Shown here piece by piece: positions 25,796 to 59,690 of a DNA stretch of 64,000 nt. Below the pieces are notes generated by a model. That model was given only the letters and a program-made list of their open reading frames with translations, was not told the origin of the DNA and did no database searches. Position 1 is the first letter of the stretch; every line of letters starts with the position of its first letter. The stretch comes from Taenia hydatigena (lineage: Eukaryota; Platyhelminthes; Cestoda; Cyclophyllidea; Taeniidae). The translations under genes were made by a program, and so were the position numbers. The stretch lies in NCBI GenBank assembly GCA_036345935.2, contig JADWOT020000004.1, positions 8,204,734-8,268,733 on the forward strand, given 5' to 3'.

Positions 25796-25799
25796 CTTC

Positions 25800-25816
25800 A
25801 ATATATATATATATAT
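25800..25816 (+). repeat. AT dinucleotide run
   Basis: Short AT run immediately upstream of the gag start on the minus strand. The related fragment at 29930 has a shorter version, so the run belongs to the element. Confidence 0.8.
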
Positions 25817-33400: not shown

Positions 33401-35010
33401 AGTGTCGAGTGTATGCATTCCTGCCCACGGACGATTGGTAGTGAGATGGAGCCTGTCTGCATTGACTATTCGACTTTTGCTCATCCTTCTAGGGCCCCTG
33501 GGTGTGGATGCTCTACCACTGCAATGGAGCGTGTGCACGAGATGTCACGCAATAGCACATTGTCTTATTTCGACAGTGTCGCGTGGTGTAGTACTCGGCC
33601 TTCCATGTGTCGCGATGCCTTTTTTAATTGCGCTGCTGTTGGTTTTTATAATGTGCTCATTGATTTGACGAGGTTGTGGGGATGGTAGAGGATGAGGGTG
33701 AGCAGTCTCACTGACTGACACTGGCTCTGTTGCCGCTACCACCTTCAACGCTGGTTATGGGTCGCTCTCTAAGGACACCACAGACTGACTCATCAGGCTG
33801 CCAACAACACCCATCTTTGCCGTCGGTGGCAATGGCAAAGAGGAATGTTGATGTAGAAGCAGACCAATGGGAGGGAGGCCGCTAAGACTGCACACTAAGC
33901 GCCTTTGAACTCATCGTCGACAGCTGTGGAGTCGCAATCATTCGGCGGATTGAGTGTACCGATTGTTACCTTCCTAAATGCGAACTATTCGTTCATGCAG
34001 GATATAAGAGACACGGTTTTCCGATTGGAGGTGTCGAAAACGGTAAGTGAGGTGTGAGTGCCATGCAAGAGCGAAACAGGTGCGAACCTGTGGCCTGGTA
34101 AGCATGCTAGATAAGTCAGATGTTATTATCTTCTTACAATGGCTGGTTTTGCCGATTCATTTTTACATCTAAGATGTTCAGGCATTGTCGCTTTTACTAC
34201 TGTGAAATGAGGTGATGCCAGTGTGAAGTAGGTGTGGAGTAATTGGAAGTGTACTTATGATGCTTTGATATGTATGAATGATTGCCTGTGCGACTCATTG
34301 TCATGCTCGATAATCGCTTTTCTAATGTTATAGGCTTAAAAACTGTCACTATAGTTGTTGTGGTGCCGTACCGTTGACATGAGTTTGACTAACCGCTTTC
34401 AGACCAATGTTTCCTCTACTGATGATGGACACGCGTGGTGGTTAACACATTTGCCCCTTATCGCATACGGAATCAGCTTGCAGCATGGGAGATGGGGAGA
34501 CTGACGATGCAGTAGCCTTACCGAGGAGAGCACGGCGGATGGCGCTGGACAAGGCGAAGTGAACCGTGTTATGCGTTGGTGGCTCAATGAATGACGGATT
34601 TTGGTGGTGAGGCCACTTAAATGCGCCATCGTTGTATCTCTTCGCAGTGGTATTTTGAATGCACGTGTATGTATTTAACCCGAGTATGATGTCCTCTTTT
34701 GTCTTCAGGGGGAAGGCAAATGCTGAGAAAACTGCAGTACCTATGTATGAATTGGTGATAGAGATGTTCTATTGTGGATTGAAGGTTCGCTAGCCGTAAC
34801 CCATTTGCTTCAGAGGGTGTAGAACTGCTCTTGCTTTGTTGGGTGGCAGATAATTGTTGGCTGTACAGGTAATGAGTGCATTTTGAAGTAGATTGCCTAC
34901 TGTTGGAGGTGTCATGAGTCTTTAGGAGGAGTGGCATGCTGTCACTTAGCCTTAAGAATGGCTTTAGAAGGTGCAGAGTGTGTAACTAGTGGGTGATTGG
35001 GTCGGTGGGT
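30411..35010. other. Gene-poor stretch
   Basis: No convincing gene. A CTG run lies at 32293-32314 and a GGA run at 32999-33034. A hydrophobic 88-codon frame at 33402-33668 follows an acceptor-like TATTTTGCAG at 33284 but lacks support. Copy B begins at 35011. Confidence 0.4.
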
Positions 35011-35222
35011 GTGAAGCAGAAAGGGGGATGTTTGTGTAAGAAAGAAGATAAGATGCCTCCAACCGCTCTGCACATGGGCATGTATGCTAAGTAGGCGAGA
35101 AGGGACGGAAGGCTCCATGCTGCTTGATTAATCTCATAACACCATCTCCTCTGCAATGCGTTCCAAATGGTAGTTGTGTTGTCATTCCATCACGCGGTTC
35201 CCTTAAGCAGACGTGGTAGCTA

Positions 35223-35576
35223 TTGCCACCACAGGGCAACTATGCGGAGTTGAATGAAACGCTGATGGAACATACGGACGGGATGGAGATTATTGTGGGA
35301 GATTGGTTTGTCAAACGCCTTTCAATAACATCTGTTGGTGTGTCTGCAGTCTTTTGTATCTTATGCCCTTGCCAAGTTATGTTGGACTGTTGGCCTGCAT
35401 GTTCTGATGTAGGCATGTGGTGGAAACATCAAATCAGAAATAACATGAAATGTTCTTTATGTCAGACTTGTCACGATGGAAATGAAATGAAGGTATTCGC
35501 TATGAGATCACTAATTATTTTTCAGCGTCCAAAATTTGTTTTAGCAAGGGTAACGATAGTTTCGCTTCAAAATTAG
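35223..35576 (+). CDS. Short conserved ORF of unknown function (copy B)
   Basis: About 117 codons beginning near a CCACCACAG|GGC acceptor-like site. It contains a Cys-containing tail (CSLCQTC) and ends at the same stop in all three copies (A 5960-6295, C 50798-51175 on minus). Copy A lacks 14 codons in frame. Differences between A and B are mostly amino-acid changing, so selective constraint is not evident. The function is not recognised and this may not be a gene. Confidence 0.2.
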   Translation: MPPQGNYAELNETLMEHTDGMEIIVGDWFVKRLSITSVGVSAVFCILCPCQVMLDCWPACSDVGMWWKHQIRNNMKCSLCQTCHDGNEMKVFAMRSLIIFQRPKFVLARVTIVSLQN

Positions 35577-37768
35577 CCTCATCATTTGTGTGGTAGAGCT
35601 TCGCGCAAGTTACTTCTCAAATAAATACGTGACATTGTATTGTCGCATAATATGGCGACACGTAAATGTAATCTACGGGGCCTAGAGAAAACAAACTCGT
35701 TCGAGCTATCTAAGAATGAGTTAATGTTTCCTCGTAATGCTGCATTGTGGATATACATTCAGCAAGCAGAGTGTAGAGACCGGTGGCGTGGTCCAAAGGC
35801 CAGCTCGCCCGTTTGGAGCAACATGGTCACCCAAGTCACCGTAGCCGAAACCGGCAATCAAACAAACAATGCATCAACTTTGAGGTATTGTAGAGCAATC
35901 AGAATGTAGTAAATAAAAAGCGTAAGAATTAGAAATGCAGAAACAATAGAAGAAATTAGGCGTGCGTGTGCAAAGAGTGAAAATCCTCTTGTCATAAAAT
36001 ACTACACAAAAAGATTGGGTGGCTATCATCAGGTTAAGAAGATGAATTGAAGATAAATGTGAATGACACATAACATTATAGTGAGAAAAGGAAACAATGA
36101 AGTATATTTGTTTCGCACTTGGGGGGTTTAATATGTTTGAATGGAGGGAGGAAAGAGGGAGGAGGAATAAGGTGGGGAGGGAGTTAAGCCATATAATTAT
36201 ACATTGCTGCGACACCATCGTTTTTCCACTTTTCTGACTACACTGCAGTTGCTAACCTTGTTTGATGTTAAAATGCGCTAATTTCTGGAAGTCGCGAGGT
36301 TGCTACGACACATTCAACATTGCTGTACCGCATGGAGATGGGATGGTGCAGACTAGTTCAGCTAATTTGAAACAAGTGGTCAATCATGAAAGACAACAAT
36401 TACTGGACAAGAACTCATTGAGTTGTTGCTAGAAGATGACGCGACTCAGGTGTAACAAAAAAACACCCTCACTCACTCACTGCCATCGCTTGTTTTCGTA
36501 CACTTCGCTCCCACCAACATGCCCGCAAAGGCCTGGCACGTCGGAGGCATTTGTCTTTAGCCTTGGCACAGCCGAGCCAATCGCCACAGCGATGGCAGAG
36601 ATAAGATGTCAGATGAATGCGAAGAGAAAAAGCAAATGGGTTAGAGTCAGTCACGATCTCACGCCTTGCGAATACAGAGCTCATGCTGATCATGTAAGGA
36701 ATGATTTGCGTATACCATGCAAGATCTTCCATAGGTGTCTCGATGGGCTTTTGCTATCGTCCAATCTTAATGCTCACTTCCGAACGTGGTCGAATAAATA
36801 GACGCAGTTAATTCTTCTACCGCTGAGCAAATCATGCAATTGAACTACAATAACTCTGCTTGAAAAAGCCATTGCTCAATTCATCAATTTGAAAAGACTT
36901 TAGTTCACTTATCGGGAGTATGTTACTACCCACAGGGCGAATAATAATGTCCCTCATGAAAGGAACCACAGTGCTGACAATGAGAGGCCTCACGTATTGG
37001 CACGATTGTGGCGACTGAGTGGAACACCTTATGGCAGATATGGAGGCTCATCAAAAGGACAGCTCTACCAATAAGGCAATGACTCAAAGTAGAAGCTACT
37101 CCTTCAACTGGACCATCTTAAGTCCAACGAGAACTATTTTGACCACTTTATCATTCCATCTTACGGCTACCAACCACCGTCTCGCATGTGTGACACATCT
37201 AGCCACTTCTTCCTCCCTTCCTTCTTTCCTTCCTCCCTTCCTTCCTTTCTTCCGTCCCTCCTTTCTCTTTCCTTCTCTTCTTCGAAAAGCAAGCCTGCTG
37301 TACCACTGGTGTGGTATGTGTTGGTTCTTTCCTTACCACCACCATCGAAAATGCACATACTGGATATGCTGCATAAATGCCTTCAACACTCACATCCGTC
37401 TTCCCATCGCATGCAGCAACAGAAACCCACTACTAAAGTCATTTGAGTAACACTTTTATTCCACTCGCATTCCAACCGCATTTCTAGCTCACTGGCATTG
37501 TGAGGCGACAGTACAGCCTCATCGTTGTGGGTGGTTGCTATCACTCCCACAAGCACATTCAACGCACCTATACCTCACCTACACCACAAAGCAGTACATC
37601 GTTCCAGTCGTGCCAGTAATAATTATCATCATTAGCCGCCAACATGCACCACAATTTAGCGTGATGGCAGTGCAGTCACCACACAGAAAGCGCTGCTGAC
37701 TTTCAAATGGTGAGGCTATCGATTGAATCCATTGATCGTGTCACACACTCAAACATACCGCCACTACA

Positions 37769-38726
37769 ATGTTTGCAAATCGGATGTATCTGCAAATGCT
37801 CTTCGTCTTGGTGTACATTTCGCTTTGGTTTTTCGGTCACTTTGGTTTTTTCCGTTTGCGATTTTTCTTTCTCGCGTGGACCCTCGTGGACATGGCGCAA
37901 GCAGTGTCCACGAGGAGAGGTAGGTGCTCGCCTTTACACACACCTCTACTAACCTCATTGTCATGCAGGTTGCCAAAGACGCCAAGAGGCTGTCTCTCAC
38001 AAAGCACTTCAGACAAATGTTCATGTGGAAGAAGAGCGGGTGGGGCAAGTGGAGCAGGTGGAGCAGGTGGAGGAGATGGAGAACTCGACTGGCGCATCTG
38101 ATGCGAAGCTGGTGAGGTTCCAACAGATACTGCAATTCTTCGCCTCGCCTCCAAGTCATTCGATGCGGAGGCGGCAGCGACGGTCGGCAGAAACAGAAGG
38201 AGATACCGGCGCCGCAGACACGACCTACGGTGTTACCGACCTTCCGGATGAGTACGAATGGAGGGAAGAAGGAGGAGGTGTTAGTGTGGATAGCGCAAAG
38301 GGCCTTTGCGCTGAAAGGAGGAGGAGGATGAGAAGACGGATGGAGACAAAGGGCCGTTCGAGGAGGGACGAGGACGGGCAGCAGGAGGAGGAGGAGGTGT
38401 GGGTGGAGCGGGTGGAGCGTGAGCGGGAGCAGACGCAGGTGCGGGATGGGCAGCGCGAGGAGAACGAGCAGGAGGAGGAGGAGCAGGAGCAGGAGCATGA
38501 GGAGCAGGAGGAGGACGGGAGAATGGAGAAGGAGGTGAAGAAGGAGGAGGCGCACAATGTCATCATCGAGAGTGGTCACCACGCACACGGCAAAGCAAAG
38601 AAGACACGCAGCGGCAGGTGGCGTCGGCTCTTCACCAACTCAATCGGTGGGCTCGCGTGGCACCAACAACACAAGGGACCACCTCACCAACACCGACACC
38701 GGTTTACGGACTCCATGATGCATTGA
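37769..38726 (+). CDS. Two-exon Glu-rich, putatively secreted protein (copy B)
   Basis: Exon 1 at 37769-37919, a 49-nt intron at 37920-37968, exon 2 at 37969-38726; 302 residues. The leader is identical in sequence to copy A. The Glu run is much shorter and one extra VEQ-type repeat is present early in exon 2. All indels relative to A are multiples of three in exons, while the intron differs by 2 nt (one CA unit). Unspliced reading would break the frame in this copy but not in A. Confidence 0.38.
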
Positions 38727-39058
38727 TGATGGAGCAAAGTGTGCTTCTTGCCTACCACCAATTCACACCAAGTCAAGTTGGTGAGAGCATTGTCCTTCCT
38801 GTTAATGCAGCAGCATCTGCACTATGAGCAGCAGCAGCAGCAGCAGGAGGAGGAAGAGGAGAAGGGCGTTGTTGTTGTCGTTGTTTTGGTTGTTAGGGAC
38901 ACTGTAGTTGTCACAGTTGGCTCAGCAGCAGCAGCAGGAGGAGGTAGATGACGATGATGACCTCCACCCATGCCAAGAGCGAAGGACTCCCGTTCTTCCA
39001 TCCATCCGTCCCTCCGTCCGTCTCTCTTAACTTCCTTTTTTTTTCTCTCCTTTTTCAT

Positions 39059-39682
39059 TTAGTGTTCGGTTGAGATGTCCTGGTGCCAACAATGTCTCGC
39101 CCATGTCCACCGTCAGAGTCGACAATTGTGCCCCTGCTGCCATCGCCGATGCCGTTGTTCACCGCCATGCGTGATGTCTCCTCGTTCTTCACTTCCCTCT
39201 CCGTTCCGATGCCTCCCCTCTCTCTCTCTCTGTCTCTCTCCCCCCCCTCCCTCCCTCACTCCCTGCCTCCCTTCCCCCTCCCTGTTTCCCTCCCTCCTTC
39301 CCTCCCCGCCTTCCCTCCTTCCTTCCTTCCTTTCTCCCTTCCTCTTCTTCCTCGAGTAGCTGCTTGTCTTCCACCGTCGCCCTTCCTTCTTTCGTGTTCA
39401 CATCTCACCCCTCCGCTTCCTCCCATTCGCATTCATCCGGACCTTCGGTCGTGCCGTGGACGTCTGCTGCTGATGCGCCGGCTCCTTCCATTTCGCCACC
39501 GTCAGCGATGACTTGCAGTATCCGTTGCAATCTACCAACCTTCACATCAGATGCGACTGCTTGCGAGTTCCCCCTCCGCCCACACTGCCCACCCTGCCCA
39601 TTCTGTCCCACTTCCTCTGCTTCCACATGAACATTCGTCTGAGGTGCTTTGTGTCAGACAGCTTCTTGGCTTCTTTGGCAAC
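39059..39682 (-). pseudogene. Inverted paralog of the Glu-rich gene (copy B)
   Basis: Counterpart of 10063-10682 with the same two TGA codons. It lacks the three extra bases (CGA/CGT) seen in A and C just before the Met-Phe-Met-Trp-coding stretch, and it carries a frame change within the GGAA/GAGA low-complexity run. Confidence 0.42.
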
Positions 39683-40557
39683 CCACATACCACCTTTCTT
39701 ATTTTTGTTCTTCTTCTTGTTTGTTCAAATACATCTCTTTTATTCATTAGACGAAGGCCTTATCTCACTTATCACTTAGTAGGCGGCAGGATGGCTGCGA
39801 TGCCACAGAATCCACCTTACTGTCGGTTTGAGCTCACTCTTCACCGACCACTTCGAAGCATTCAATACCACATCCCGACTCTGTCTTATGGTCGTTGAGT
39901 TGTGTGACGCCATCTCCTTCACGTTATAACAAGACACGTCGTTCCCAGGCAGCTCTCTCCCTCCACATCAAGTCCACCCGATGGGAAACTGAAGCACATC
40001 TTTCAAGTCATTCTTGATGAATGACGAGGAAGGAGCGATGGTTGATGGGATGAAAAGAAGCCCACTGCCGTCTGTCTATGCCGACTTGACTTCCATGCAT
40101 CCAAGCAAATGATGAAGGAGGACGAGCAATTAGGTGATGGCACAGGAACTGACTTCTCCAAACAGGGTCACAAGTGGCGCAATTCCTTGCATCCCCAACT
40201 AATTCACTGACTACTTCTTAACAACCCACCAACCAATATCACTTTCGATGGAAATTTCAAATGACATGATCCCTTCAAATTAATCAAGTGACCGAACTCT
40301 TCTGCAACAACTGCCTCATTCTCCGTCACCTCACTCAGTGAGGGTTTGCTGCCCTAGTGGTTGCCAATCTATCGGCGTTCGCGTCGTCCTCTCGTCAAGC
40401 TTTGGTCCCACGCCATTGAATGTGCAACCACAAAAAACAGTCTACCACAACCTTCCAAAACTGCTCAGAGAAGTCTCAACAATCTTCAACTAAAATTCAG
40501 TAAAGTACTCAAAAGGAAGATTGTTATTTAAGAGCAAGTTCAACACTCAGGCCAATG

Positions 40558-40743
40558 TTATTCTGCATAGCACTTGCTGTTAAGCCACGCAAATCCCATC
40601 GCATCGTCGGTCGGTGATGTCCACGCATACGTGGCAGTAGCAGCAGCTGCAGTCGCAGAAGCGGGGCTCTGTGGAGGAGGCGAAGCATAGAAAGGTTGAA
40701 CTAGCGCCGTCGACGACTCTCCAAATCCCCGTCCTTCAGGCAC
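40558..40743 (-). CDS. YAWTS terminal-exon unit 1 (copy B)
   Basis: 61-codon counterpart of 11557-11745, one codon shorter in the Ala/Thr run, with the same acceptor and TAA. Its translation is identical to that of copy C over the full length. Confidence 0.32.
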   Translation of the reverse strand: MPEGRGFGESSTALVQPFYASPPPQSPASATAAAATATYAWTSPTDDAMGFAWLNSKCYAE

Positions 40744-41330
40744 CTAGAATATTGACAAAGAGTTTTAAGATGGAAATGCCTCCTCTTCCTAACAGCAAAG
40801 CACAAATCAACACTAACACCAAGGACCACCGCCAGTCTACCCAAGCAGTATACCGCAACCCCACTCCACCCCCATTAAGCACACTCCAAACGTCGTTCAA
40901 GGCACAAACAACCCCACAAACCAACAAAACAGTCCCCATTTACCGCCTATCGTGCTATACAGTGACAAAAAATGCACCACGTGAGTAGAAGGACTGATTC
41001 CATCGCTCCGAACAACACCTAATCGCCACACTTCCTCATCCAACGACTTTTGAAGTGAAGGCCACAGTCTACCAAAAGTGCTCACCCATCCGCCTTTTTC
41101 TAACGCCAAGTTAGGCTTTCGCATTAGCGAGGAACCAGAATCCTTCTCTCCGTGATTACAACTGGCAAGAATAAAATCCACACCTTTCAATGCGTCTAAA
41201 CCTTCTTACCGGTTAGTTCGACCGCAAATCCAAGTCGTTTCTGATGCAAAAAATCAACATTGGCCCCTTACCCAGTTGGGCAGCCAAAAAGGACTGATGA
41301 AACTGCTGTTGTTGCGATAGCCATCGTTGG

Positions 41331-41372
41331 ATGAATGAATGAATGAATGAATGAATGAATGAATGAATGAAT
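41331..41372 (+). repeat. GAAT tetranucleotide microsatellite
   Basis: About ten units in copy B, against about four imperfect units at the matching site in copy A (about 11950-11968). Confidence 0.9.
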
Positions 41373-41554
41373 GTCCCCGTCGGTGATGTCCAGGCATACG
41401 CACCAACACAGGCAGAAGCAAAGCTCTGTGGAGGAGGCAGAGAATAGAACGATTGAGTCGCCGTTTCAATCGATGTAGCTGCGTCCACCAACCGTCTGTG
41501 CCGTGCAGTATCACAATCCTTCCTTCGCCTTCCAAGCATTCCGAACCATTGCAC
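41370..41554 (-). CDS. YAWTS exon unit 2 (copy B)
   Basis: Counterpart of the unit at 11950-12152, with the acceptor TTTTTCAACGTTGCAG and the same motifs. It is followed by an expanded GAAT repeat (41331-41372). The 3' end is uncertain. Confidence 0.28.
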
Positions 41555-42862
41555 CTGCAACGTTGAAAAAGAGTTGTAAGACGGAGATGCTTCCCCACTC
41601 CCTCTCCTAGCGCAAAGCACAGACCAGCAGAGCCACACCCTACCCTCATGCCGACACAAGCGACCACCTCCAATCCATCCAAGCAGTGCACCACAGCCGT
41701 ATTGCAACCCCAATCCGCCCCCGCCTTGCCCCTCCCACTTCCTCCCCTCCCCTCCCCCTCCTCCTCCTCTCCACAACTACCTACTTGTGCCTTTTCAACC
41801 CATTCGCATTCTTAAGGCTACGTCGCAGTAGTAGTGAGAACAGCGCCACCACTCATCACCTATACAGTCAGCAACAAATTAACTGCCACCCTCCCACACC
41901 AACAACATCCCCCTACCTTCGAAAGCAAATTATGCCGCACTTACCACCAGTGACCTCTCACCCATAGCACTTCCATTCGTCATCGTCGTCGTCGTTGTCG
42001 CCGTCGCCGTCGTAAGAGAGCGTCACCTTCACTCTTCCACACAAAAGCACGACACGCCTCCCCTAGTCTCTCCCCTCCCTCTCCGCCACCCCTCCTCTCC
42101 CCGTCCACCCACTTAACCACCCATGCCCCCCCGGAAGAAAAAGAGATGCTCACATAATAGCAGTAGTAGTCCCTGTCGTCCACGCCTGCCGACACCTACA
42201 TCGCACAACCCAGACCGAGACGCCGCCACCGCCAACGCCAACGCCGCGAATCACTCCAACATCTCGCACTGCCCACCATCACTCCACACAATCATCAAAT
42301 GCTACTTCACCATCACCACAATAAGTTTGTAGCATCTGAAAAGGGAAAAAAACCAAGCAATGCAGAGATGGACGTGTGACAGTCCAATGCGCTGCAAAGC
42401 TAACACCAACGAACATAACTGCTGATAGGAGAGAAACGACTTAGCAAGCAAATGCTTAAGACTGCTACAAAGTACAGTCTGCGTAGTGATTCCAAAGCTT
42501 CCCACTAGCCCCACTCCTGCTGCTGCGTCTACCTCACTCACTCACCCACTCACTTACTCAGACACCAACTCGTGCCGTCAAAGCTGAAAAAACCTACGAT
42601 TGAACCATCACCGAGGCCCTCTACACAACACCTTTCGCAGCAAGGATCACATCAACACAACAAATTACCCTCGTCCCGCTCCCAGTCCTCCGCCATCTCT
42701 ATGCGCTGCTGCTCCAACAGCACGCATATCACAGTCATGCCAATAGCGCACCTTTCACCACACAGATAAACAGGAAAAGCACCTTCCCACCCAACATAAG
42801 AACACCGCACATCGGTTCTGTTACTGCACCCAAAATGCACCAACAACTCAATCCAATCTTAC

Positions 42863-42974
42863 CTAGGGAATGCGCGAAGTCATAGCGAAGGCGAGGTTCA
42901 CGCTCATTGCTACAGCTTCATCTCCATCTCCTTCCTCTTCTCTTTCTTCCTCTTCCTCTTCTTCAACGTCTATT
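42863..42974 (-). CDS. Candidate acidic terminal exon (copy B)
   Basis: Counterpart of 12748-12856. It differs by a 3-base insertion in the Glu run and by three substitutions, one silent (Asn) and two changing (Val to Ala, His to Pro). The acceptor, the frame and the TAG directly before GTAAGA are all retained. Confidence 0.25.
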
Positions 42975-43325
42975 CTAGCATGAAAGCGCAAAAGAAAAAT
43001 GGATAATACGACTTATAAACAAGATGAATACTAGCAAGGAAATAATGAACAACGTTAAAACCCCTCACAAGTCTCTTCATCATATTCCACCGCATTCATC
43101 AAAACTCATTCTTGATTAAATAACTAAGCACTTGGAAACAGCAAAAACGATCCTACTTATTCGCAATAAGGATTGTGTAGTGAAAAATCAACGCGATTAG
43201 GCAATGCAAATGGAAAACAAAAAGTCTTCACAGCGACTGCAGCTATTTTTGGAACGATTGGCCTAACATATAGAGTGATAAGAAAAGAAAAAATGTAAGC
43301 ACACAAGTATGCATGTAATGGGTGC

Positions 43326-44817
43326 TTGATCGCACAAAAGCACCAAGCAAGTAATTGCCAAGCACTCGGTAAGATTATAACTCCTCTCAACCAAATTGCA
43401 CCCCACCAATCAAACTCCAACGTCATTAATACAAAAAACACAGCCTCACACACTGCTAAAACGGTCATAATTTATCACTTATAGTGCCGTGTAGCAAAAC
43501 TGCACCTTAGTAAACGTCTCAACAGTCACATTAAGAGGCCTTTGCGTTTACTCCAGCAAGTACGTGTGTAACAGAAGAAATTCGATATTTAAAATATCTG
43601 TTAACAACAAAACCACCAAACGCTTACAAGATTTCCAACTTCTGACGGCGAACAAAGGCTCACTAATCCGAAACAACGGTGGCCGAAACAGGCAGCTCTT
43701 ACGCGAGCCACGTACAAACATGACCAATCAGGTCAAAGTTCGTTCGGTAAAACAATCAGGCTTTTAATATATATGTGTTTTATACGATGCAACAACTAAC
43801 ACAAACTAGAGCAGTTTTGTAACAAACACAAAATTTAAAGTAGAAATACACAAATGAAAGAGTTTACGAATTGCGCACGAGTGAGAGATATGGCAATGAA
43901 TCTCAGCAGACGACCAAAGCATAGATACTATAGTATAAGGTGCAACAGCGCAAAGCAAAAGTAGTTTCAATAACAACACTTAATTTTAATGTGTTGTCCT
44001 CATGGAAAATTTTAATTGTCTTTGGTGTCCAATGCCTTTTTATGGTTCGAATATCTACGCCACTAAGGTCGGTTAAGGTCGTAAATGAATGACTGGCTTG
44101 TGCATTCGGCTGAGTGTTGCGTTGTTTTGCTTCTCTTCTCATTCAAATGGGTCGTTTTACTAATGCTTATGGGCCAACGACTGTTGGGAAATGAATGCCT
44201 TGCTATTCGCGACTCAGGACAGTGTTGAGAGTGGATTACGTTAGTTTGTGGCATGTCTACAGTGGATGAATGGAAGTATGGATGAATGGTTGAGAAGGAC
44301 CACCGATTTTGCGCCATTTCAGTAGAAGCGGAAGCGCTCCCAAAGTGAAAGGTAAGGTAGGAACATAGATGCTGGTTATTTTGTGTGTCTATCCATGATT
44401 TTATTGCGGTACTTGCATGCACAGGATGGGTTAATTGATTTGTTCTCCTCGAGGAATATGGTGTTAACCAATGCGTTTGCATTTTCACAAGTTGATTGAA
44501 CCTGCTGAAGACGCGTTTGTAACGCGTTGCACCGTGACCACTCTTCTTGTTACGTTGCACCTACACGTGTGGCATGTGTTTCATATCACCAAGTCATGGC
44601 TATCCAGAATACCCGATGTATTTAAAGCAATAAAGGTGGTGAGGGACAGTTGTGTTGTGTAGTATTTGAAAAGGAGGAGGAGGGGAGGTCAGTTGATTAG
44701 AAGAAGTGAATGCAGTTAGCGTAATTGTATAGGCGAAACAGGCACTACTGTTGGGTGTGGTGATGAGGATTGCTGCTTAGCAGGTGAAGCGTGTTTTGCG
44801 TAGGTGTTACCTCTGAC
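43326..44817. other. Spacer between copies B and C
   Basis: About 1.5 kb not shared with locus A. It holds a 175-bp dispersed repeat (43785-43960) and a 165-codon minus-strand ORF (44063-44560), rich in Ser, His and Thr, which I do not recognise and do not call a gene. Confidence 0.5.
43785..43960 (+). repeat. Dispersed ~175-bp repeat, copy 1
   Basis: Matches 58878-59055 in the same orientation: CACAAACTAGAGCAGTTTTG, a variable stretch, then CGAGTGAGAGATATGGCAAT and AACAGCGCAAAGCAAA. Scattered substitutions indicate an old dispersed repeat. Confidence 0.85.
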
Positions 44818-44957
44818 AGCAGGGATTCACAGCGACTGGAGTGGGTCTTGCTGGATTACTTAGTGACGTGGCCTCATGACTATGGGTAAATCGTGGGGTA
44901 TGCGCGAACAAATAGTGTAGAAGTTGATTGTGAGGGGAAGTGTTGAATTCAGCTCTG
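44818..44957 (+). repeat. Fragment of the 2-kb arm beside copy C
   Basis: About 140 bases match left-arm positions 4783-4921 with scattered differences. Orientation and order are those expected if copy C once ran core then arm, with an internal deletion of the intervening part. The match ends after a GTGTTGAATTCAG motif. Confidence 0.85.
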
Positions 44958-45354
44958 CCTTGTGTAGAGTGTTCGGCTGTCTGTTAAGGAGAGGAAGGAG
45001 GTAGGGAAGAGGATGGGAGGTGGAGGAGGGCACATACAGTGAAAAGCGCATCATTCCACGCAACACCCTGCCAATTTCGACGCTTGAATCATCTTGAGGT
45101 GGAATTAGTCCTTCTACTCACGTGGTGCATTTTTTGTCACTGTATAGCACGATAGGCGGTAAATGGGGACTGTTTTGTTAGTTTGTGGGGTTGTTTGTGC
45201 CTTGAACGACGTTGGGAGTGTGCTTAATGGGGTAGGGGGTTGCGGTATACTGCTTGGGTAGACTGGCGGTGGTCCTTGGTGTTAGTGTTGATTTGTGCTT
45301 TGCTGTTAGGAAGAGGAGGCATTTCCATCTGACAACTCGTTGTCAATATTCTAG

Positions 45355-45540
45355 GTGCCTGAAGGACGGGGATTTGGAGAGTCGTCGACGGCGCTAGTTC
45401 AACCTTTCTATGCTTCGCCTCCTCCACAGAGCCCCGCTTCTGCGACTGCAGCTGCTGCTACTGCCACGTATGCGTGGACATCACCGACCGACGATGCGAT
45501 GGGATTTGCGTGGCTTAACAGCAAGTGCTATGCAGAATAA
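45355..45540 (+). CDS. YAWTS terminal-exon unit 1 (copy C)
   Basis: Identical in translation to 40558-40743 but on the plus strand, in the inverted copy. The acceptor TCAATATTCTAG ends at 45354. Exact B/C agreement contrasts with several differences from A. Confidence 0.32.
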   Translation: MPEGRGFGESSTALVQPFYASPPPQSPASATAAAATATYAWTSPTDDAMGFAWLNSKCYAE

Positions 45541-46415
45541 CATCGGCCTGAGTGTTGAACTTGCTCTTAAATAACAATCTTCCTTTTGAGTACTTTACTG
45601 AATTTTAGTTGAAGATTGTTGAGACTTCTCTGAGCAGTTTTGGAAGGTTGTGGTAGACTGTTTTTTGTGGTTGCACATTCAATGGCGTGGGACCAAAGCT
45701 TGACGAGAGGACGACGCGAACGCCGATAGATTGGCAACCACTAGGGCAGCAAACCCTCACTGAGTGAGGTGACGGAGAATGAGGCAGTTGTTGCAGAAGA
45801 GTTCGGTCACTTGATTAATTTGAAGGGATCATGTCATTTGAAATTTCCATCGAAAGTGATATTGGTTGGTGGGTTGTTAAGAAGTAGTCAGTGAATTAGT
45901 TGGGGATGCAAGGAATTGCGCCACTTGTGACCCTGTTTGGAGAAGTCAGTTCCTGTGCCATCACCTAATTGCTCGTCCTCCTTCATCATTTGCTTGGATG
46001 CATGGAAGTCAAGTCGGCATAGACAGACGGCAGTGGGCTTCTTTTCATCCCATCAACCATCGCTCCTTCCTCGTCATTCATCAAGAATGACTTGAAAGAT
46101 GTGCTTCAGTTTCCCATCGGGTGGACTTGATGTGGAGGGAGAGAGCTGCCTGGGAACGACGTGTCTTGTTATAACGTGAAGGAGATGGCGTCACACAACT
46201 CAACGACCATAAGACAGAGTCGGGATGTGGTATTGAATGCTTCGAAGTGGTCGGTGAAGAGTGAGCTCAAACCGACAGTAAGGTGGATTCTGTGGCATCG
46301 CAGCCATCCTGCCGCCTACTAAGTGATAAGTGAGATAAGGCCTTCGTCTAATGAATAAAAGAGATATATTTGAACAAACAAGAAGAAGAACAAAAATAAG
46401 AAAGGTGGTATGTGG

Positions 46416-47045
46416 GTTGCCAAAGAAGCCAAGAAGCTGTCTGACACAAAGCACCTCAGACGACGAATGTTCATGTGGAAGCAGAGGAAGTGGGACAGAA
46501 TGGGCAGGGTGGGCAGTGTGGGCGGAGGGGGAACTCGCAAGCAGTCGCATCTGATGTGAAGGTTGGTAGATTGCAACGGATACTGCAAGTCATCGCTGAC
46601 GGTGGCGAAATGGAAGGAGCCGGCGCATCAGCAGCAGACGTCCACGGCACGACCGAAGGCCCAGATGAATGCGAATGGGAGGAAGCGGAGGGGTGAGATG
46701 TGAATACGAAAGAAAGAAGGGCGACGGTGGAAGACAAGCAGCTACTCGAGGAAGAAGAGGAAGGGAGAAAGGAAGGAAGGAAGGAGGGAAGGCGGGGAGG
46801 GAAGGAGGGAGGGAAACAGGGAGGGGGAAGGGAGGCAGGGAGTGAGGGAGGGAGGGGGGGAGAGAGACAGAGAGAGAGAGAGGGGAGGCATCGGAACGGA
46901 GAGGGAAGTGAAGAACGAGGAGACATCACGCATGGCGGTGAACAACGGCATCGGCGATGGCAGCAGGGGCACAATTGTCGACTCTGACGGTGGACATGGG
47001 CGAGACATTGTTGGCACCAGGACATCTCAACCGAACACTAAATGA
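46416..47045 (+). pseudogene. Inverted paralog of the Glu-rich gene (copy C)
   Basis: Counterpart of 10063-10682 on the plus strand, with the same two TGA codons. It also shifts frame within the purine-rich low-complexity run (about 46750-46880); the C-terminal part resumes in another frame ending at 47045. Confidence 0.42.
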
Positions 47046-47374
47046 AAAAGGAGAGAAAAAAAAAGGAAGTTAAGAGAGACGGACGGACGGACGGACGGAT
47101 GGATGGAAGAACGGGAGTCCTTCGCTCTTGGCATGGGTGGAGGTCATCATCGTCATCTACCTCCTCCTGCTGCTGCTGCTGAGCCAACTGTGACAACTAC
47201 AGTGTCCCTAACAACCAAAACAACGACAACAACAACGCCCTTCTCCTCCTCCTCCTCCTGCTGCTGCTGCTGCTCATAGTGCAGATGCTGCTGCATTAAC
47301 AGGAAGGACAATGCTCTCACCAACTTGACTTGGTGTGAATTGGTGGTAGGCAAGAAGCACACTTTGCTCCATCA

Positions 47375-48338
47375 TCAATGCATCATGGAGTCCGTAAACC
47401 GGTGTCGGTGTTGGTGAGGTGGTCCCTTGTGTTGTTGGTGCCACGCGAGCCCACCGATTGAGTTGGTGAAGAGCCGACGCCACCTGCCGCTGCGTGTCTT
47501 CTTTGCTTTGCCGTGTGCGTGGTGACCACTCTCGATGATGACATTGTGCGCCTCCTCTTTCTTCACCTCCTTCTCCATTCTCCCGTCCTCCTCCTGCTCC
47601 TCATGCTCCTGCTCCTGCTCCTCCTCCTCCTGCTCGTTCTCCTCGCGCTGCCCATCCCGCACCTGCGCCTGCTCCCGCTCACGCTCCACCCGCTCCACCC
47701 ACACCTCCTCCTCCACTTCCTGCTGCCCGTCCTCATCCCTCTTCGAACGGCCCTTTGTCTCCATCCGTCTTCTCATCCTCCTCCTCCTCCTTTCAGCGCA
47801 AAGGCCCTTTGCGCTATCCACACTAACACCTCCTCCTTCTTCCCTCCATTCGTACTCATCCGGAAGGTCGGTAACACCGTAGGTCGTGTCTGCGGCGCCA
47901 GTATCTCCTTCCGTTTCTGCCGACCGTCGCTGCCGCCTCCGCATCGAATGACTTGGAGGCGGGGCGAAGAATTGCAGTATCTGTTGGAACCTCACCAGCT
48001 TCGCATCAGATGCGCCAGTCGAGTTCTCCATCTCCTCCACCTGCTCCACCTGCTCCACTTGCTCCACCCGCTCTTCTTCCACATGAACATCTGTTTGAAG
48101 TGCTTTGTGAGAGACAGCCTCTTGGCGTCTTTGGCAACCTGCATGACAATGAGGTTAGTAGAGGTGTGTGTAAAGGCGAGCACCTACCTCTCCTCGTGGA
48201 CACTGCTTGCGCCATGTCCACGAGGGTCCACGCGAGAAAGAAAAATCGCAAACGGAAAAAACCAAAGTGACCGAAAAACCAAAGCGAAATGTACACCAAG
48301 ACGAAGAGCATTTGCAGATACATCCGATTTGCAAACAT
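47375..48338 (-). CDS. Two-exon Glu-rich, putatively secreted protein (copy C)
   Basis: Minus strand: exon 1 at 48338-48188, a 49-nt intron at 48187-48139, exon 2 at 48138-47375; 304 residues. Leader, splice sites and C-terminus match copies A and B. The Glu run carries a Val interruption. It lies in the inverted arm of the palindrome, so B and C face each other and could be homogenised by gene conversion. Confidence 0.38.
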
Positions 48339-50797
48339 TGTAGTGGCGGTATGTTTGAGTGTGTGACACGATCAATGGATTCAATCGATAGCCTCACCAT
48401 TTGAAAGTGAGCAGCGCTTTCTGTGTGGTGACTGCACTGCCATCACGCTAAATTGTGGTGCATGTTGGCGGCTAATGATGATAATTATTACTGGCACGAC
48501 TGGAACAGTGGGCTGCTTTGCGGTGTAGGTGAGGTGTAGGTGCGTTGAATGTGCTTGTGGAAGTGATAGCAACCACCCACAACGATGAGGCTGTACTGTC
48601 GCCTCACAATGCCAGTGAGCTAGAAATGCGGTTGGAATGCGAGTGGAATAAAAGTGTTACTCAAATGACTTGAGTAGTGGGTTTCTGCTGCTGCCTGTGA
48701 CGGGAAGACGGGTGTGAGTGTTGAAGGCATTTATGCAGCATATCCAGTATGTGCATTTTCGATGGTGGTGGTAAGGAAAGAACCAACACATGTTACACCG
48801 GTGGGACAGCAGGCTTGCTTTTCGAAGAAGAGAAGGAAAGAGAAAGGAGGGACGGAAGAAAGGAAGGAAGGGAGGAAGGAAAGAAGGAAGGGAGGAAGAA
48901 GTGGCTAGATGTGTCACACATGCGAGACGGTGGTTGGTAGCCGTAAGATAGAATGATAAAGTGGTCAAAATAGTTCTCGTTGGACTTAAGATGGTCCAGT
49001 TGAAGGAGTAGCTTCTACTTGGAGTCATTGCCTTATTGGTAGAGCTGTCCTTTGATGAGCCTCCATATCTGCCATAAGGTGTTGCACCCAGTCGCCACAA
49101 TCGTGCCAATACGTGAGGCCTCTCATTGTCAGCACTGTGGTTCCTTTCATGAGGGACATTATTATTCGCCCTGTGGGTAGTAACATACTCCCGATAAGTG
49201 AACTCAAGTCTTTTCAAATTGATGAATTGAGCAATGGCTTTTTCAAGCAGAGTTATTGTAGTTCAATTGCATGATTTGCTCAGCGGTAGAAGGATTAACT
49301 GCGTCTATTTATTCGACCACGTTCGGAAGTGAGCATTAAGATTGGACGATAGCAAAAGCCCATCGAGACACCTATGGAAGATCTTGCATGGTATACGCAA
49401 ATCATTCCTTACATGATCAGCATGAGCTCTGTATTCGCAAGGCGTGAGATCGTGACTGACTCTAACCCATCTGCTTTTTCTCTTCGCATTCATCTGACAT
49501 CTTATCTCTGCCATCGCTGTGGCGATTGGCTCGGCTGTGCCAAGGCTAAAGACAAATGCCTCCGACGTGCCAGGCCTTTGCGGGCATGTTGGTGGGAGCG
49601 AAGTGTACGAAAACAAGCGATGGCAGTGAGTGAGTGAGGGTGTTTTATTACACCTGAGTCGCGTCATCTTCTAGCAACAAATCAATGAGTTCTTGTCCAG
49701 TAATTGCTCTCTTTCATGATTGACCACTTGTTTCAAATTAGCTGAACTAGTCTGCACCATCCCATCTCCATGCGGTACAGCAATGTTGAATGTTTCGTAG
49801 CAACCTCGCGACTTCCAGAAATTAGCGCATTTTAACATCAAACAAGGTTAGCAACTACAGTGTAGTCAGAAAAGTGGAAAAACGATGGTGTCGCAGCAAT
49901 GTATAATTATATGGCTTAATTCCCTCCCCACCCTACTCCTTCTCCCTCTTTCCTCCCTCCATTCAAACATATTAAACCCCCCACGAGCGAAACAAATATA
50001 CTTCATTGTTTCCCTTTCTCCCTATAATGTTATGTGTCATTCGCATTTATCTTCAATTCATCTTATTAACCTGATGATAGCCACCCAATCCTTTTGTGTA
50101 GTATTCTATGACAAGAGGATTTTCACCCTTTGCACACGCATGCCTAATTTTTCCCATTGTTTTCGCATTTCTAATTCTTACGCTTTTTATTTACTACATT
50201 CTGATTTCTCTACAATACCTCAAAGTTAATGCATTGTTTGTTTGATTGCCGGTTTCGGCTGCGGTGACTTGGGTGACCATGTTGCTCCGAACGGGCGAGC
50301 TGGCCTTTGGACCACGCCACCGGTCTCTACACTCTGCTTGCTGAATATATACACACATTCCATTTAAGTATTATGCCCTCTTTTGCTTTTAATGAAGTCT
50401 TGGAACGCTACATCACATTTGTTGCACACATTCAAATTGCCCAACCGCTTTCCAGTTAGTGTTCTACAACAAAGAACAACTTATTGCTGTGTTTTAGCGT
50501 CCCTATTCTTGAGCCCCATTTGCTTATTGTCAACTACTTTTCCTTTGCCATCGAGACCCATCAGCGTGGTTTTACGACGTTCTCATGGTCGTCGCCGTTG
50601 TCGCCTTGTGAGGCAAAACCTCTCCACAATGAAGCATTACGAGGAAACATTAACTCATTCTTAGATAGCTCGAACGAGTTTGTTTTCTCTAGGCCCCGTC
50701 GATTACATTTACGTGTCGCCATATTATGCAACAATACAATGTCACGTATTTATTTGAGAAGTAAATTGCGCGAAGCTTTACCACACAAACAATGAGG

Positions 50798-51175
50798 CTA
50801 ATTTTGAAGCGAAACTATCGTTATCCTTGCCAAAACAAATTTTGGACGCTGAAAAACAATTAATGATCTCATAGCGAATACTTTCATTTTACTTCCATCG
50901 TGACATGTCTGGCATAAAGAACATTTCATGTTATTTCTGATTTGATATTTCCACCAAATGCCTACATCAGAACATGCAGGCCAACAGTCCAACATAACTT
51001 GGCGAAGGTGTAAGATACAAACGACTGCAGACACACCAACAGATGTTATTGGAAGGCGTTCGACAAACCAATCTCCCACAATAATCTCCATCCTGTCTGA
51101 ATGTTCCGTGTGGTGGCAATAGCTACCACGTCTGCTTAAGGGAACCGCGTGATGGAATGACAGCACAACTACCAT
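50798..51175 (-). CDS. Short conserved ORF of unknown function (copy C)
   Basis: Inverted counterpart of 35223-35576, 125 codons, with the same stop and the same 14-codon segment as copy B. The upstream part differs because of indels before the CCACCAC site. Confidence 0.18.
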   Translation of the reverse strand: MVVVLSFHHAVPLSRRGSYCHHTEHSDRMEIIVGDWFVERLPITSVGVSAVVCILHLRQVMLDCWPACSDVGIWWKYQIRNNMKCSLCQTCHDGSKMKVFAMRSLIVFQRPKFVLARITIVSLQN

Positions 51176-51458
51176 TTGGAACGCATTGCAGAGGAGATGG
51201 TGCTATGAGATTAATCAAGCAGCATGGAGCCTTCCCTCCCTTCTGGCCTACTTAGCATACATGCCCATGTGCAGAGCGGTTGGAGGCATCTTATCTTCTT
51301 TCTTACACAAACATCCCCCTTTCTGCTTCACTCCACACAGTGGGACTACGTTGTCACACAACTGGTGGATGCTTTGCATCCATCAATTTGCTGCACCACC
51401 AGTGCGCCTTTCGATGATTCACTCAACACTACCTCCGTCAATTTAAACATATTTTAGA

Positions 51459-52040
51459 ATGGTTTTAGAATGCTTAAGGATGAAGGCATCGACTAGGACG
51501 GTGCTCATAGATCAAATGGGTAGGTCAATCCAAACATTGTCCTCATTACACTCGCACTACGGTAACTCGTTTGTTGACGAGAATGCACGATTTCATTTAA
51601 ACACGCTCCAAGTTTTGCAGCACAACGTGTGCTTTGTGCATCCCCAGCAATTCGAGGGTTTTGAATCACTCATGTAGCACCACATGGAAGCGCACACTGG
51701 TGAGTTTGTAGATGCTTTAGTCCAGTTAGCTAGAAATATATTATCGCATAAGCATGCTTCAGTGGGCATACAAGCTTCCCCAGAATTCATACTTTGTTGT
51801 GATGTTGCAGGTCAAAATAAGGAGTCATCTGATGCCCGCTACTACTGCATGGAATGTTATGGGGACTGTCCAACATGGGAGACACTGAGGAACCACATCC
51901 GCCTAAGCCGTCCTTGTACGTTTTCCTCCGTTCGTAAAACTCACTTCTTGATGACTAATTTTGCCGGTCATGCCCCTGCCTTGCAGATGTTTGGAGCAAG
52001 CTGTACAGTCAAATGGGATAAAATCCCCTCAAGCAAATGA
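51459..52040 (+). pseudogene. C2H2 zinc-finger-like ORF with an in-frame TAG
   Basis: One frame is open for 193 codons except for a TAG at 51675-51677. Codons 58-79 fit a C2H2 finger: Cys58-x2-His61-x3-Phe65-x5-Leu71-x2-His74-x4-His79, followed by the linker Thr-Gly-Glu-Phe. The second zinc ligand is His instead of Cys and the TAG falls inside the finger. A second finger-like block begins near 51846 with Cys-x2-Cys-x12-His and Leu at H minus 3, preceded by an acceptor-like GATGTTGCAG. Only the part up to 51768 is duplicated in copy A. It is probably a decayed zinc-finger gene; a spliced-out stop is the alternative. Confidence 0.4.
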
Positions 52041-55127: not shown

Positions 55128-56454
55128 ATGGGAGCTCCTGCTCTTCCTTTCCATTCTACAAATCGAAAACCGGTGTTACACTTCATTGTCATCTGCGCAT
55201 CCATAACTTACCTTATCTACAGTTATGCCATTTACATCAAAGCCACATCCTTGGAGAGGTGGGTAACTCAACCAAATCGCAACGGTACTTACTGCGCATG
55301 GAACGTGACAAACCCATTTCTCGCGTACGCAGAAAGTCTACCATTGCTTTTCATGACACCTTTTTCTTGTAAGTGGGCTAGCAGCCCTCCGTGTGGTAGT
55401 TAATATGTGTGGGTACGGGAATGCATGAACATGCCTTTAATCTTTCACCCATGACATCCCGTCCTCTACCGTCTTGCATGAAACAATATCTCAGGAATAT
55501 TATTCTGTGATCTTGCATTCTTCTTTTAGCCTTCCCTTTACAATCCATGGATCCGAGTTCGCCAAGTACCCTCTGGAGTATGCTCTCTTCTCGTGCACCC
55601 ACAAGCCACAGATGGGCTCGCCGATGGATTGTCTCGCCCTGACGTGGTGATTATGCACAAGTCAGAAGTCTACAATTTTGAGGAGAGAAGTCAACTGCGC
55701 AAACTCTACCATCTCTACTACCCGAACGTCAAGATTTACCTCTTCTTCCCTATCGGCTTACCACGAACTTTGCTAGACAAACGTATTTCAACGGGACGGA
55801 TTTAATGTGACCCTTAATAACAGAGCAGGAAATGAACTGAAGGCATATTCACAGCATCCACAAAGGACAGCCGAAATGCTTTCCAGGGAAATGCACGAAT
55901 ATGATGACCTACTTGTCGGTGACTACGAAGACTCCTACTATAATTTGACGCTGAAAATGTTCCACACATTCCAGTGGGCTGCTCGATTTTGTCGACCCTA
56001 CAAACCCATCTTCGTCTTTCTTGATGACGACTATGCCGTCAATGCAAATAAGTTAGTCACATTTGTACGTAGCCTAACAACGGAACTTCGAGAAAACCTG
56101 AACTACGGTTGCGAAGTGATGGTGAATCCTGTTTTCCGGCATACCAGTTCGTATCTGCAGTGGGTCTTCTCGAAGCGCGAAATTCCTTGGCCATTCCATA
56201 CACCACAGTACTTGGGTATCTACAGTATGTGGAGCTACCGTCATGTCCACGACTTGGCTCTGGCAATGCACTTCACTAAGCCCATGGCAATTGATGACAC
56301 GTGGCTAAGGATGGTGCAGTACAAGCTGAATCTCACACCCAAGGGGATGGAAGGCATGTTCCGCAAGAGTTGGCCGATGCCGAAGCATGTCAACTGCTCC
56401 GATATCTTCTTTGCTCTTCTTAGCGAATTTGAACAGCGCAAGTGCGCATTGTAA
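55128..56454 (+). CDS. Beta-1,3-galactosyltransferase-like protein (GT31), frame disrupted
   Basis: GT31 enzymes transfer galactose or GlcNAc to glycans in the Golgi as type II membrane proteins. Exon 1 (55128-55368) follows an acceptor-like GCTGCAG and encodes a short cytosolic tail, a membrane anchor (about residues 17-37) and a stem with Asn-Gly-Thr and Asn-Val-Thr sequons. A GTAAGT donor at 55369 and TTCTTTTAG acceptor at 55529 bound a 161-nt intron. Exon 2 carries the domain: Asn-Phe-Glu-Glu-Arg near 55674, Asp-Tyr-x3-Tyr-Tyr-Asn-Leu-Thr, the Asp-Asp-Asp metal motif at 56023-56031, and Ile-Asp-Asp-Thr-Trp near 56290. The best reading changes frame at about 55362-55368, 55600-55640 and 55770-55805. 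It is therefore a pseudogene or an indel-affected assembly. The last 215 codons are intact and family assignment is firm. Confidence 0.82.
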
Positions 56455-56499: not shown

Positions 56500-57990
56500 G
56501 AGGTAAATGCTCATGCATTAAAAGCCGCATGTTTGCACTCCCCACCAAGCAATGAAGCAGACCTAATTTCGGAATACAACAGGAAGAGGTGATCAGTTCC
56601 TGAACACCTCATCCTGATGTGAGGTTTTTAGTGAACTTTGAACCAAATGTCTCTGTCACGTGTTTGCGGTGTAACCCCATAATTCCGTAATAGCAGCTTG
56701 AGGAACTGTTATCATATTTAAGAGCTTTGTTTTGATCAGGAAAGCATTTCTGCCTTAGTGACATTGCTCTACTTCCACAGCCAGAGGCGTGACACGTTCT
56801 CTTGCCTTCAGGGTCTGGAATATGCCTTGTTCTGATAAATGTCGTCCTGAGAATATTCTTTCCGATTTTCGATCACAAAACTCATTAACTTATGCATTGT
56901 CACACTGTTTTTAAGCTCTGCTTTATTTCCTTCTAATCGGACAGCCAAAAGTTTCACAGTTAGATATTGTGTTATACAAAACTGCGACCCACAAATATGC
57001 GTCGGAAGTGCAGAAATACTGATAAGTCGTAGCGCAGCAAATCTTTTCTATTGAGCAGTCAGCAATTTACCTGCTGCTGGTTCACTACCAGATTTTGTGT
57101 GCCAAAGGGTGGACTCCATTTAACCTCACTGTTGTGTTTTGCGCCGATTCCAACAGCTAGAGCTTCAATGAAGTGGCACACTGGCTTCATTCACAAAACC
57201 TTCTCCATGCGTTTACAACCACACACCCACTCGTTCACTCACTTTTCCATTAACACGGCTCTTTGGGCCATTGTCACACGCTCCTCCACCCAATGAAAGA
57301 GAGGTTGCAATAAAATTACACTAAAAGTTTATGCATTCCTTAAACCGGCACCAAGCCCGCCTTCTCTGTTTTCATCATTGCTATCTCCGTTGACAGTACC
57401 CTGAGATACCTTTAAAGGTTCACTGCCATTGCGAATAATAGCAGTTGAAAATATTCGGCATCTGACCAGTTTAATCCATTCCGGACGACGGGTGGTAAAT
57501 GCAACAATGTCCCACTGATCGCCTAACAATTGATAGGCTTAGTACAAGTGCGCACTTCGAGCATTTGTCGCGCGCATTTAGCTGTTGGGAAAAGAAGTTA
57601 TCAAGGTAAGCGGTGTAGGTGTGAGTGTGCGACTGGGTGCAATTGTGGGCATTTGGTACATCATTTTAAACCATGTGAAAGTCATCGAGAGTGGGAGTCC
57701 AAAATGTAATCCACATTTTCCACTCACATTTTAGACAAGAAACTCTTATGCAAGAAAGTAAAGTGCGTGTTTCAAATAATTGAGCGTTTAACGCTAAAAA
57801 GGCGGGTGATGGTTGTAGTGCGGGCAACAGGTTATCAAAAAAGGAACATTTTAGCATGAATGCAAAAATAGGCTTTAAATGAGCATGAGATTGCATCGCG
57901 ATGTGTAGAGGCAGAACACACTGATACCGTTGCTGTCGGCTGCCATCGAAGATAAAGGAACTTCTTCCCATCAAGACAGAGGAAAAGTGA
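56500..57990. other. Gene-poor stretch after the GT31 gene
   Basis: No recognisable gene on either strand; short ORFs have no domain character. Confidence 0.45.
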
Positions 57991-57994
57991 TGAA

Positions 57995-58200
57995 AGGAAC
58001 TCCACAATTTAACAAGCTCTGAACTCTAATGCTAGCTGCACGATAAGTTGCAGAACAGACACGGCTAATCTCAAGTCTTCACAAGATGGCAATTGCAACT
58101 GGCAATTGTACTTTTCAAAGGCTTTGCTGTTTCAGGTATGGCTTTGAATGAGTTCCAAGTGCTGAACAAATTTAGATGGCATCGACTTGACCAGCGTCAA
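57995..58200 (+). repeat. Local duplication, copy 1
   Basis: Matches 59505-59690 about 1.5 kb downstream in the same orientation: AACAAGCTCT, GATGCTAGCTGC-type, CAAGATGGCAATTGCA, GGCTTTGCTGTTTCAGGTATG and AAATTTAGATGGCA blocks. Copy 1 has a short CAACTGGCAATTG insertion. The shared TTGCTGTTTCAG|GTATGG has the form of a splice acceptor. Confidence 0.85.
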
Positions 58201-58877
58201 GGTCACTTAACCAACTCCTCCTCACCTTTGCACAACACAAAGTAGAAAGCACTCATCCATCTACTTCCGCTTCTCGATCCTTCCATCTGTGCACCATCCC
58301 ATCAATGTCCAATCATCAAGTGTAGCCCTCACACCAAGTGCACAACTTTGTTCATATTTATTCATGAGGTCCACCCTTCCCTTTCATAAACCCTTTACGC
58401 AGGTCTGGCAAAATCAAAGTCCAGTGCATTTTACACGCACGGTGGTAATTACTGATACGCTTCAAGAGTGGCATGGCCTTTTTACACTTCTGTCACTTTG
58501 GTTCCCGTCCACAGAAGCAAAAGCAACGGCTTTGTCTCTCCCTCTCTCCCCCTCTCTAGCTCCCCATTGCGTTTCATGTGCATGTGCTAATTGGATTCAT
58601 CCCCACTCCTACACATCCATCGACGCCATATCGCCTCTAGCCCTCCTCCCACTCCCACCCCTTCTCCACTCCCCCACTCCTTCTCCTCCTCCTCCTTCCA
58701 GTGTCAATGCTGCGCACACGCCAGCAATAAAAGCGGACCCGTTTGGGAAGGGGGCACGGGTTTCTTGCCGATGTGCAAGTGTAGGTGGTGGGGTGGTGGT
58801 GGTGTAGAGTGTTTAATGAGGATGAAGCGTTGGTATTCTTGGAAAAGGGTTGTAAGGCGGAGATGTGGTTTAGATGA

Positions 58878-59055
58878 TGCAACAAATAGCACAAACTAGA
58901 GCAGTTTTGTAACAAACACAATAATTTAAAGTACAAACACGCAAGTAAAACAATTTAGGAATTGCACACGAGTGAGAGATATGGCAATGAATCTTAACAG
59001 TCGATCAAAGCATAGATGCTATATCATTGGGTGTAACAGCGCAAAGCAAAGCGCC
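58878..59055 (+). repeat. Dispersed ~175-bp repeat, copy 2
   Basis: Partner of 43785-43960. Upstream, both copies share GATGCAACAA before CACAAACTAG. Identity stops just after the GCAAAGCAAA motif. Confidence 0.85.
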
Positions 59056-59504
59056 TTGCTACTGTTAGGAGATAGGTAAAACAAGCACATATTTTGAACT
59101 ACTAAAAGAAACGGAAGTTGGAATTATGAGGTGCATGGGTGATAGCACAAATGTAACCGCATATATGATATCGTGTTAGAACCAAGAAATGTCACCTCTA
59201 ACCGAGGTGAGTCTTACTTTGTTGCAACTCAACTTAGGTATTAATGGGACAGACTTCTAAACTAACCATGTTGGAAGATGTCTGCACCTCAAAACCGACT
59301 TCGTGACAAATGGTCATGAGCCTCATAATTTTAATGAAATTCAAGCCTTCTACATATCCATTTTTCGTAATTAGTTGCGTTTGCCATGATATCTTAGGAT
59401 TACTTAGCGAACCACAGGAACGATTGCTCCATCATACCACGTGCGGCTGTGAAGAGATGGTGCATCAGTCGACTATGGTGGGAGGGATTGCGTGGTGATG
59501 AAAC

Positions 59505-59690
59505 GAACCTCCACATTTTAACAAGCTCTACACTCTGATGCTAGCTGCAAGATAAGTTGCGGAACAAACATGACTATTCTCAAGTCTTTACAAGATGGCA
59601 ATTGCACTTTTCGAAGGCTTTGCTGTTTCAGGTATGGCTTTGAATGAGTTGCAAGTGCTGAACAAATTTAGATGGCAACGACTAACTAAT
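59505..59690 (+). repeat. Local duplication, copy 2
   Basis: Partner of 57995-58200. Only this copy has an open frame through the block (70 codons from the ATG at 59595). It is not otherwise supported as a gene. Confidence 0.85.

Follow-up and report, generated by a model that had tools for sequence, protein, structure and literature searches.

A probable inverted segmental duplication cluster with unevenly similar copies in the tapeworm Taenia hydatigena

Introduction

Two similar segments face each other in a Taenia hydatigena contig, and the locus raises the question of whether they form a genuine inverted repeat and, if so, whether their likeness comes from exchange between the arms or from a shared later origin. 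The original prediction described a palindrome of two copies of about 7 kb (B and C) carrying variants not found in a third copy, A. Here we analyse the window, the whole 64,000-nucleotide stretch in which the locus lies. The inverted B/C repeat is real but that description was incomplete, as the repeat is part of a larger cluster made up of three copies, A, B and C, and a partial fourth, A-prime. The cluster is probably a local, apparently non-coding inverted segmental duplication in a taeniid that then underwent patchy ectopic gene conversion.

Results

Copies were located by self-BLAST of the window and compared in three-way MAFFT alignments of A, B and C (Table 1). The segment spans about 7-9 kb, and two of its four copies are inverted. 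By self-BLAST, B 35,746-41,002 matches C 50,357-45,100 in inverted orientation at 97.9% (E=0), and B 35,008-35,751 matches C 51,334-50,623 at 91.1%, gaps counted. A matches C over 5,360-11,896 at 94.8% and B over 6,736-11,888 at 95.5%; with gaps counted, BLAST identities of the long pieces lie at 94.8-97.9%. Segmental duplications are defined as at least 1 kb at 90% identity or more in the part of the literature cited here (PMC2640414), and the copies share 6-6.5 kb at 97.3-98.05% ungapped. The B/C alignment itself (B 35,008-41,002, C 45,100-51,334) is 98.05% identical over 5,951 ungapped columns, with 12 gap runs.

Table 1. Coordinates of the copies and of the features within them
Feature	Position in window	Strand	Relation
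Copy A	5,360-13,350	+	extends as the right arm as far as 14,732, followed by satellite-like sequence up to 14,784
Copy B	35,008-43,325	+	corresponds to A 5,794-13,207
Copy C	45,100-51,768	-	equivalent to A 11,896-5,360, in the opposite orientation to A and B
A-prime (fourth, partial copy)	3,368-5,361	-	copy of A 12,766-14,732; abuts A head-on
Right arm of the A inverted repeat	12,766-14,732	+	likely source of A-prime
Inner homogenised tract, B side	39,733-40,860	+	aligned region A 10,733-11,880
Inner homogenised tract, C side	45,238-46,365	-	aligned region A 10,733-11,880
Central 1,633 bp	43,326-44,958		order inverted relative to A
146-bp fragment	44,813-44,958	-	matches A 13,206-13,350; displaced continuation of B

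B and C do face each other, but their alignment covers only 6.0 and 6.2 kb, short of 7 kb: B is truncated at its 5' end by 434 bp that A and C retain in the three-way alignment, and C stops at 45,100. The outer edges lie at B 35,008 and C 51,768, with C 51,334-51,768 matching A only. The inverted arms are separated by a spacer of 4.1 kb (41,003-45,099). The interval of 43.3-44.8 kb first proposed as the spacer is the main part of it that is not homologous to A; 44,959-45,099 likewise has no homology to A. A nested inverted repeat of about 180 bp lies inside B (37,968-38,143 and 39,505-39,683, 78% identical, 1.4 kb apart) and also occurs in A and C.

Assemblies are known to go wrong at large inverted repeats, and B and C might be one copy, or two haplotypes, that the assembly has misplaced or misoriented. 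We consider an artefact of this sort unlikely. Fold-back of one molecule predicts near-identical arms and mirrored ends, whereas 116 substitutions and 12 gap runs separate B from C, their ends fall at different positions in the unit, and the sequence next to those ends is not the same. There is also no N anywhere in the window. On these sequence features a single-molecule fold-back is unlikely, while a wrong orientation of B and C in the assembly is possible.

The copies also differ in length. B lacks about 270 bp that are present in A and C, and it carries stretches of 398 bp and 745 bp (the latter at 41,699-42,443) that are absent from A. A and C are 100% identical over 269 bp in the outermost part of the unit, which B lacks. 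Alignment of C past 45,100 is spurious (about 40% identity), and the variant counts below use the trimmed alignment.

The segment looks non-coding, judging from its sequence, though a lineage-specific gene or RNA could lie within it. A Pfam search of the six frames of 3,368-14,732 returned no match at E<=0.1 (0/6 frames). Pfam scans, some of them at E<=0.01 and the others at E<=0.1, covered the window outside 1-3,367, 33,901-40,899 and 45,221-51,767, with the B and C arms judged through A. They found no domain above the cut-off in the palindrome centre, where DUF2798 (13.5 bits) and HJURP_C (13.1 bits) fell below it, as did an LRR1 PH domain match in the window (17.1 versus 27 bits). An Rfam scan and a tRNA scan, the latter with the bacterial code, found nothing.

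The YAWTS frames of B (40,561-40,743) and C (45,355-45,537) are indeed identical and both unlike A, as first noticed, but the frame carries no coding signal that would make it an exon: changes fall 2/3/4 over the codon positions (A frame 11,560-11,745). The open frame at 37,953-38,723 was likewise rejected as a gene, with none of 104 candidates for its residues 1-130 reaching E<=0.001; changes in the matching A frame are 5/7/6, though none of the three copies interrupts that frame and its indels come in threes. Among A open frames of at least 50 codons, changes are mostly spread across codon positions, and B or C contains stops in some and none in many. A minus-strand frame at 6,865-7,239 is open in three copies with no indels and shows a slight third-position excess (8/6/12), and its translation does not look protein-like by eye; two further frames were judged by eye only.

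Two Pfam matches passed the cut-offs in the scanned regions. One is a galactosyltransferase exon at 55,777-56,451 (PF01762, E=2.1e-18), whose best relative among 29 proteins listed is TsM_000384100 at 79% identity, TsM being the T. solium gene prefix. Downstream of this exon is a direct repeat of about 200 bp (57,987-58,187 and 59,495-59,683, 86%). The other is DUF5726 on the minus strand within 25,112-25,834 (PF18996, E=6.7e-40), with a T. solium protein as best relative at 65%. In both cases the best relative is a taeniid protein, which places the window in a taeniid tapeworm. This region is probably a retroelement gag remnant, because some of its 17 relatives, from T. solium, carry the name retroviral-like protease or Pol; our literature search found no paper on DUF5726. 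A 278-bp direct repeat (19,869-20,146 and 24,778-25,055, 95% identical, starts 4.9 kb apart) may represent an element's terminal repeats. By base counts the GC content of the window is 46.4%, and tapeworm values given in the part of the T. hydatigena paper cited here are 43.0, 42.9, 43.2, 42.2, 41.9 and 36.4% (PMC8384839).

Could the unit instead be an uncharacterised mobile element with many copies genome-wide? That same portion of the paper assigns most T. hydatigena repeats to no known class (PMC8384839), self-BLAST shows no match at E<=1e-10 between the sequences immediately flanking A, B and C, and each copy holds the nested inverted repeat of about 180 bp. We nonetheless find a mobile element improbable, since the six-frame Pfam search of the A locus (E<=0.1) returned no domain, transposase included, the ends of the copies fall at differing places in the unit, and no target-site duplication was noticed by eye at the ends read. 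The 2-kb inverted repeat of A, which might be likened to the terminal repeats of a TIR transposon, is absent as a pair around B or C by self-BLAST; the lack of a transposase Pfam match in 3,368-14,732 is compatible with a non-autonomous element.

Pairwise comparison of A/B, A/C and B/C along the arms, which the original prediction had put forward as a check, revealed uneven identity in which an inner tract stands out. Over the shared core, ungapped identity is 97.45% for A/B (147 mismatches), 97.30% for A/C (174) and 98.05% for B/C (116). In the inner tract, B and C are 99.65% identical (4/1,128 differ), while A/B and A/C fall to 96.01% and 96.36%. In the remainder (A 5,794-10,732) the three pairs are about equidistant, at 97.72% for B/C (107/4,685 columns differ), 97.86% for A/B and 97.39% for A/C. 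The claim that B and C share variants absent from A thus holds mainly for the inner 1.15 kb or so.

Within the tract, an 821-bp stretch is fully identical between B and C. The longest run of sites at which B and C agree against A covers 26 of 206 three-way variant sites and was reached in 0/10,000 shuffles, in tests that assume exchangeable sites. The longest A=C run is 8 sites (13/10,000 shuffles), or 11 (0/10,000) when the one site differing in all three copies is removed. The longest A=B run is 7 sites either way (159/10,000, or 183/10,000 without that site), a weak result at about 0.016-0.018, uncorrected. Recent exchange between the facing B and C arms is strongly supported by these patterns for the inner tract, in keeping with part of the original suggestion of gene conversion; the runs also point, more weakly, to exchange between A and C.

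GC bias is a frequent mark of conversion. None was seen in the tract, where A is the odd copy 16 times towards GC and 17 times towards AT, which are small and unpolarised numbers. With three copies and no outgroup, sites with a single odd copy cannot be polarised, and the counts for the whole core (A odd at 96 sites, C at 59 and B at 50) represent branch lengths only.

Those counts could be read as a sign that B and C are a younger pair, born of one late inverted duplication and similar by descent alone. Five length differences of at least 15 bp also separate A from the other two copies, one of them a stretch of about 130 bp (40,868-41,002 and 45,100-45,222) missing from A, although without an outgroup it may just as well be A that changed. 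If descent were the only cause, divergence should be the same from end to end of the arm, and the uneven identity disfavours this: outside the tract, B and C are no closer than A and B, so that they cannot be treated as sisters throughout, and the substitutions do not support the general shared later origin once proposed for them. A purely genealogical explanation therefore seems rather unlikely to us. Strong selection on the inner tract could likewise lower local divergence, but A differs there by about 4%, more than elsewhere, and open frames in the tract show no excess of third-position changes, making this account very improbable.

The part of the unit that C lacks behaves differently from the core. 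In this tail (A 11,897-13,207), A and B are 93.2% identical, with 87/1,280 positions differing compared with 147/5,763 in the core (Fisher p=2.6e-12). Higher tail divergence is expected if the shared part was homogenised; the tail could also simply be evolving faster than the core.

The palindrome centre is itself rearranged. Homology of B to A ends at A 13,207 (43,325), and the 146-bp fragment, read from 44,958 to 44,813, resumes at A 13,206. When 43,326-44,958 is reversed and its first 200 bases are joined to B, one continuous match to A 12,297-13,350 results (1,028 bp versus 1,054 in A, 89.2%). The centre is inverted relative to A, and we take the order in A as the likely ancestral one because A is uninterrupted. 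The centre also contains one member of a 188-bp dispersed repeat (43,773-43,959), 87% identical to 58,863-59,050.

Copy A has an inverted repeat of its own, absent from the earlier description and more perfect than B/C. A-prime and the right arm (3,368-5,361 and 14,732-12,766) are identical at 1,964/1,967 ungapped bases (99.85%), with one 27-bp gap. The junction of A-prime with A, at 5,360/5,361, coincides with the start of A/C homology. The right arm is continuous with sequence shared with B (A 12,297-13,207), and at its outer end similarity to a 181-bp tandem array extends past the repeat (14,658-14,784); at the left arm this similarity begins at the edge (3,368-3,442). Since B and the satellite share the sequence that adjoins the right arm, A-prime was probably copied from that arm. 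The tandem array itself lies at 22,615-24,065 in units of about 181 bp, and sequence 71-74% similar to it occurs at the outer end of each arm of A's inverted repeat.

Discussion

We favour a local inverted segmental duplication whose copies later underwent patchy conversion. A segment of about 7-9 kb would have been duplicated locally by non-homologous or microhomology-mediated copying, and the 2-bp overlaps at the only two junctions read closely (TG at 5,360-5,361, GC at 43,324-43,325) are consistent with microhomology. Ectopic gene conversion would later have homogenised parts of the copies. Its most recent action would lie in the inner stretch of the B and C arms, whose facing orientation allows pairing.

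Rough ages can be attached to these steps from uncorrected distances (t=d/2r), assuming neutrality and a borrowed Echinococcus intron rate of 7.1e-9 per site per year, as cited from part of PMC4558846. The A/B tail would then be about 4.8 million years old, the core outside the tract 1.5-1.8 million, the inner B/C tract 0.25 million and A-prime 0.1 million.

It is tempting to go further and propose, tentatively, a self-homogenising inverted-repeat cluster, in which facing copies correct each other from the centre outwards and new inverted copies, such as A-prime with its 0.15% divergence, still arise. Taeniid tapeworms are, to our knowledge, hermaphrodites without sex chromosomes. If true, such a cluster would amount to palindrome-type concerted evolution in a hermaphroditic flatworm, free of genes and away from any sex chromosome. 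By itself the locus changes no known mechanism, and if it is real in the organism it offers a compact natural test of conversion, with inverted and direct copies within 50 kb.

Among the papers listed for Taenia, Echinococcus, helminths and arm-to-arm conversion, no title or opening lines of an abstract describe a nuclear palindrome in a tapeworm, which is not proof of absence. Ectopic conversion in a taeniid genome has a precedent in the ta-TRIM elements of T. solium, for which the cited part of the work gives four significant cases in that species and none in four other taeniids (Koziol et al. 2015, PMC4558846). Those elements are short dispersed retrotransposons, whereas here the conversion would act on a local inverted segmental duplication.

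The structure described here is of a known kind, found in this case in a flatworm, and its nearest precedents, by analogy, appear to be the mammalian palindromes and the Caenorhabditis inverted repeats. Mammalian sex-chromosome palindromes, as the cited portion of that study presents them, similarly show evidence of conversion between large inverted arms, but their arms exceed 99% identity and their conversion is GC-biased (Jackson et al. 2021, PMC8981503); here the arms are 98.05% identical overall, only about 1.15 kb exceeds 99%, and no GC bias was seen in the small numbers available. Long inverted repeats in Caenorhabditis consist of paralogous gene pairs for which active maintenance has been proposed, according to the part of that report cited (Zhao et al. 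2007, PMC1803023). In two examples given there the intergenic arms are 124 and 160 bp, with the genes beside them, and the comparison is cross-species, in contrast to arms of 6 kb with no gene detected at our locus. Both are nevertheless inverted paralogous DNA in an invertebrate, in which the members of a pair are closer than simple descent predicts.
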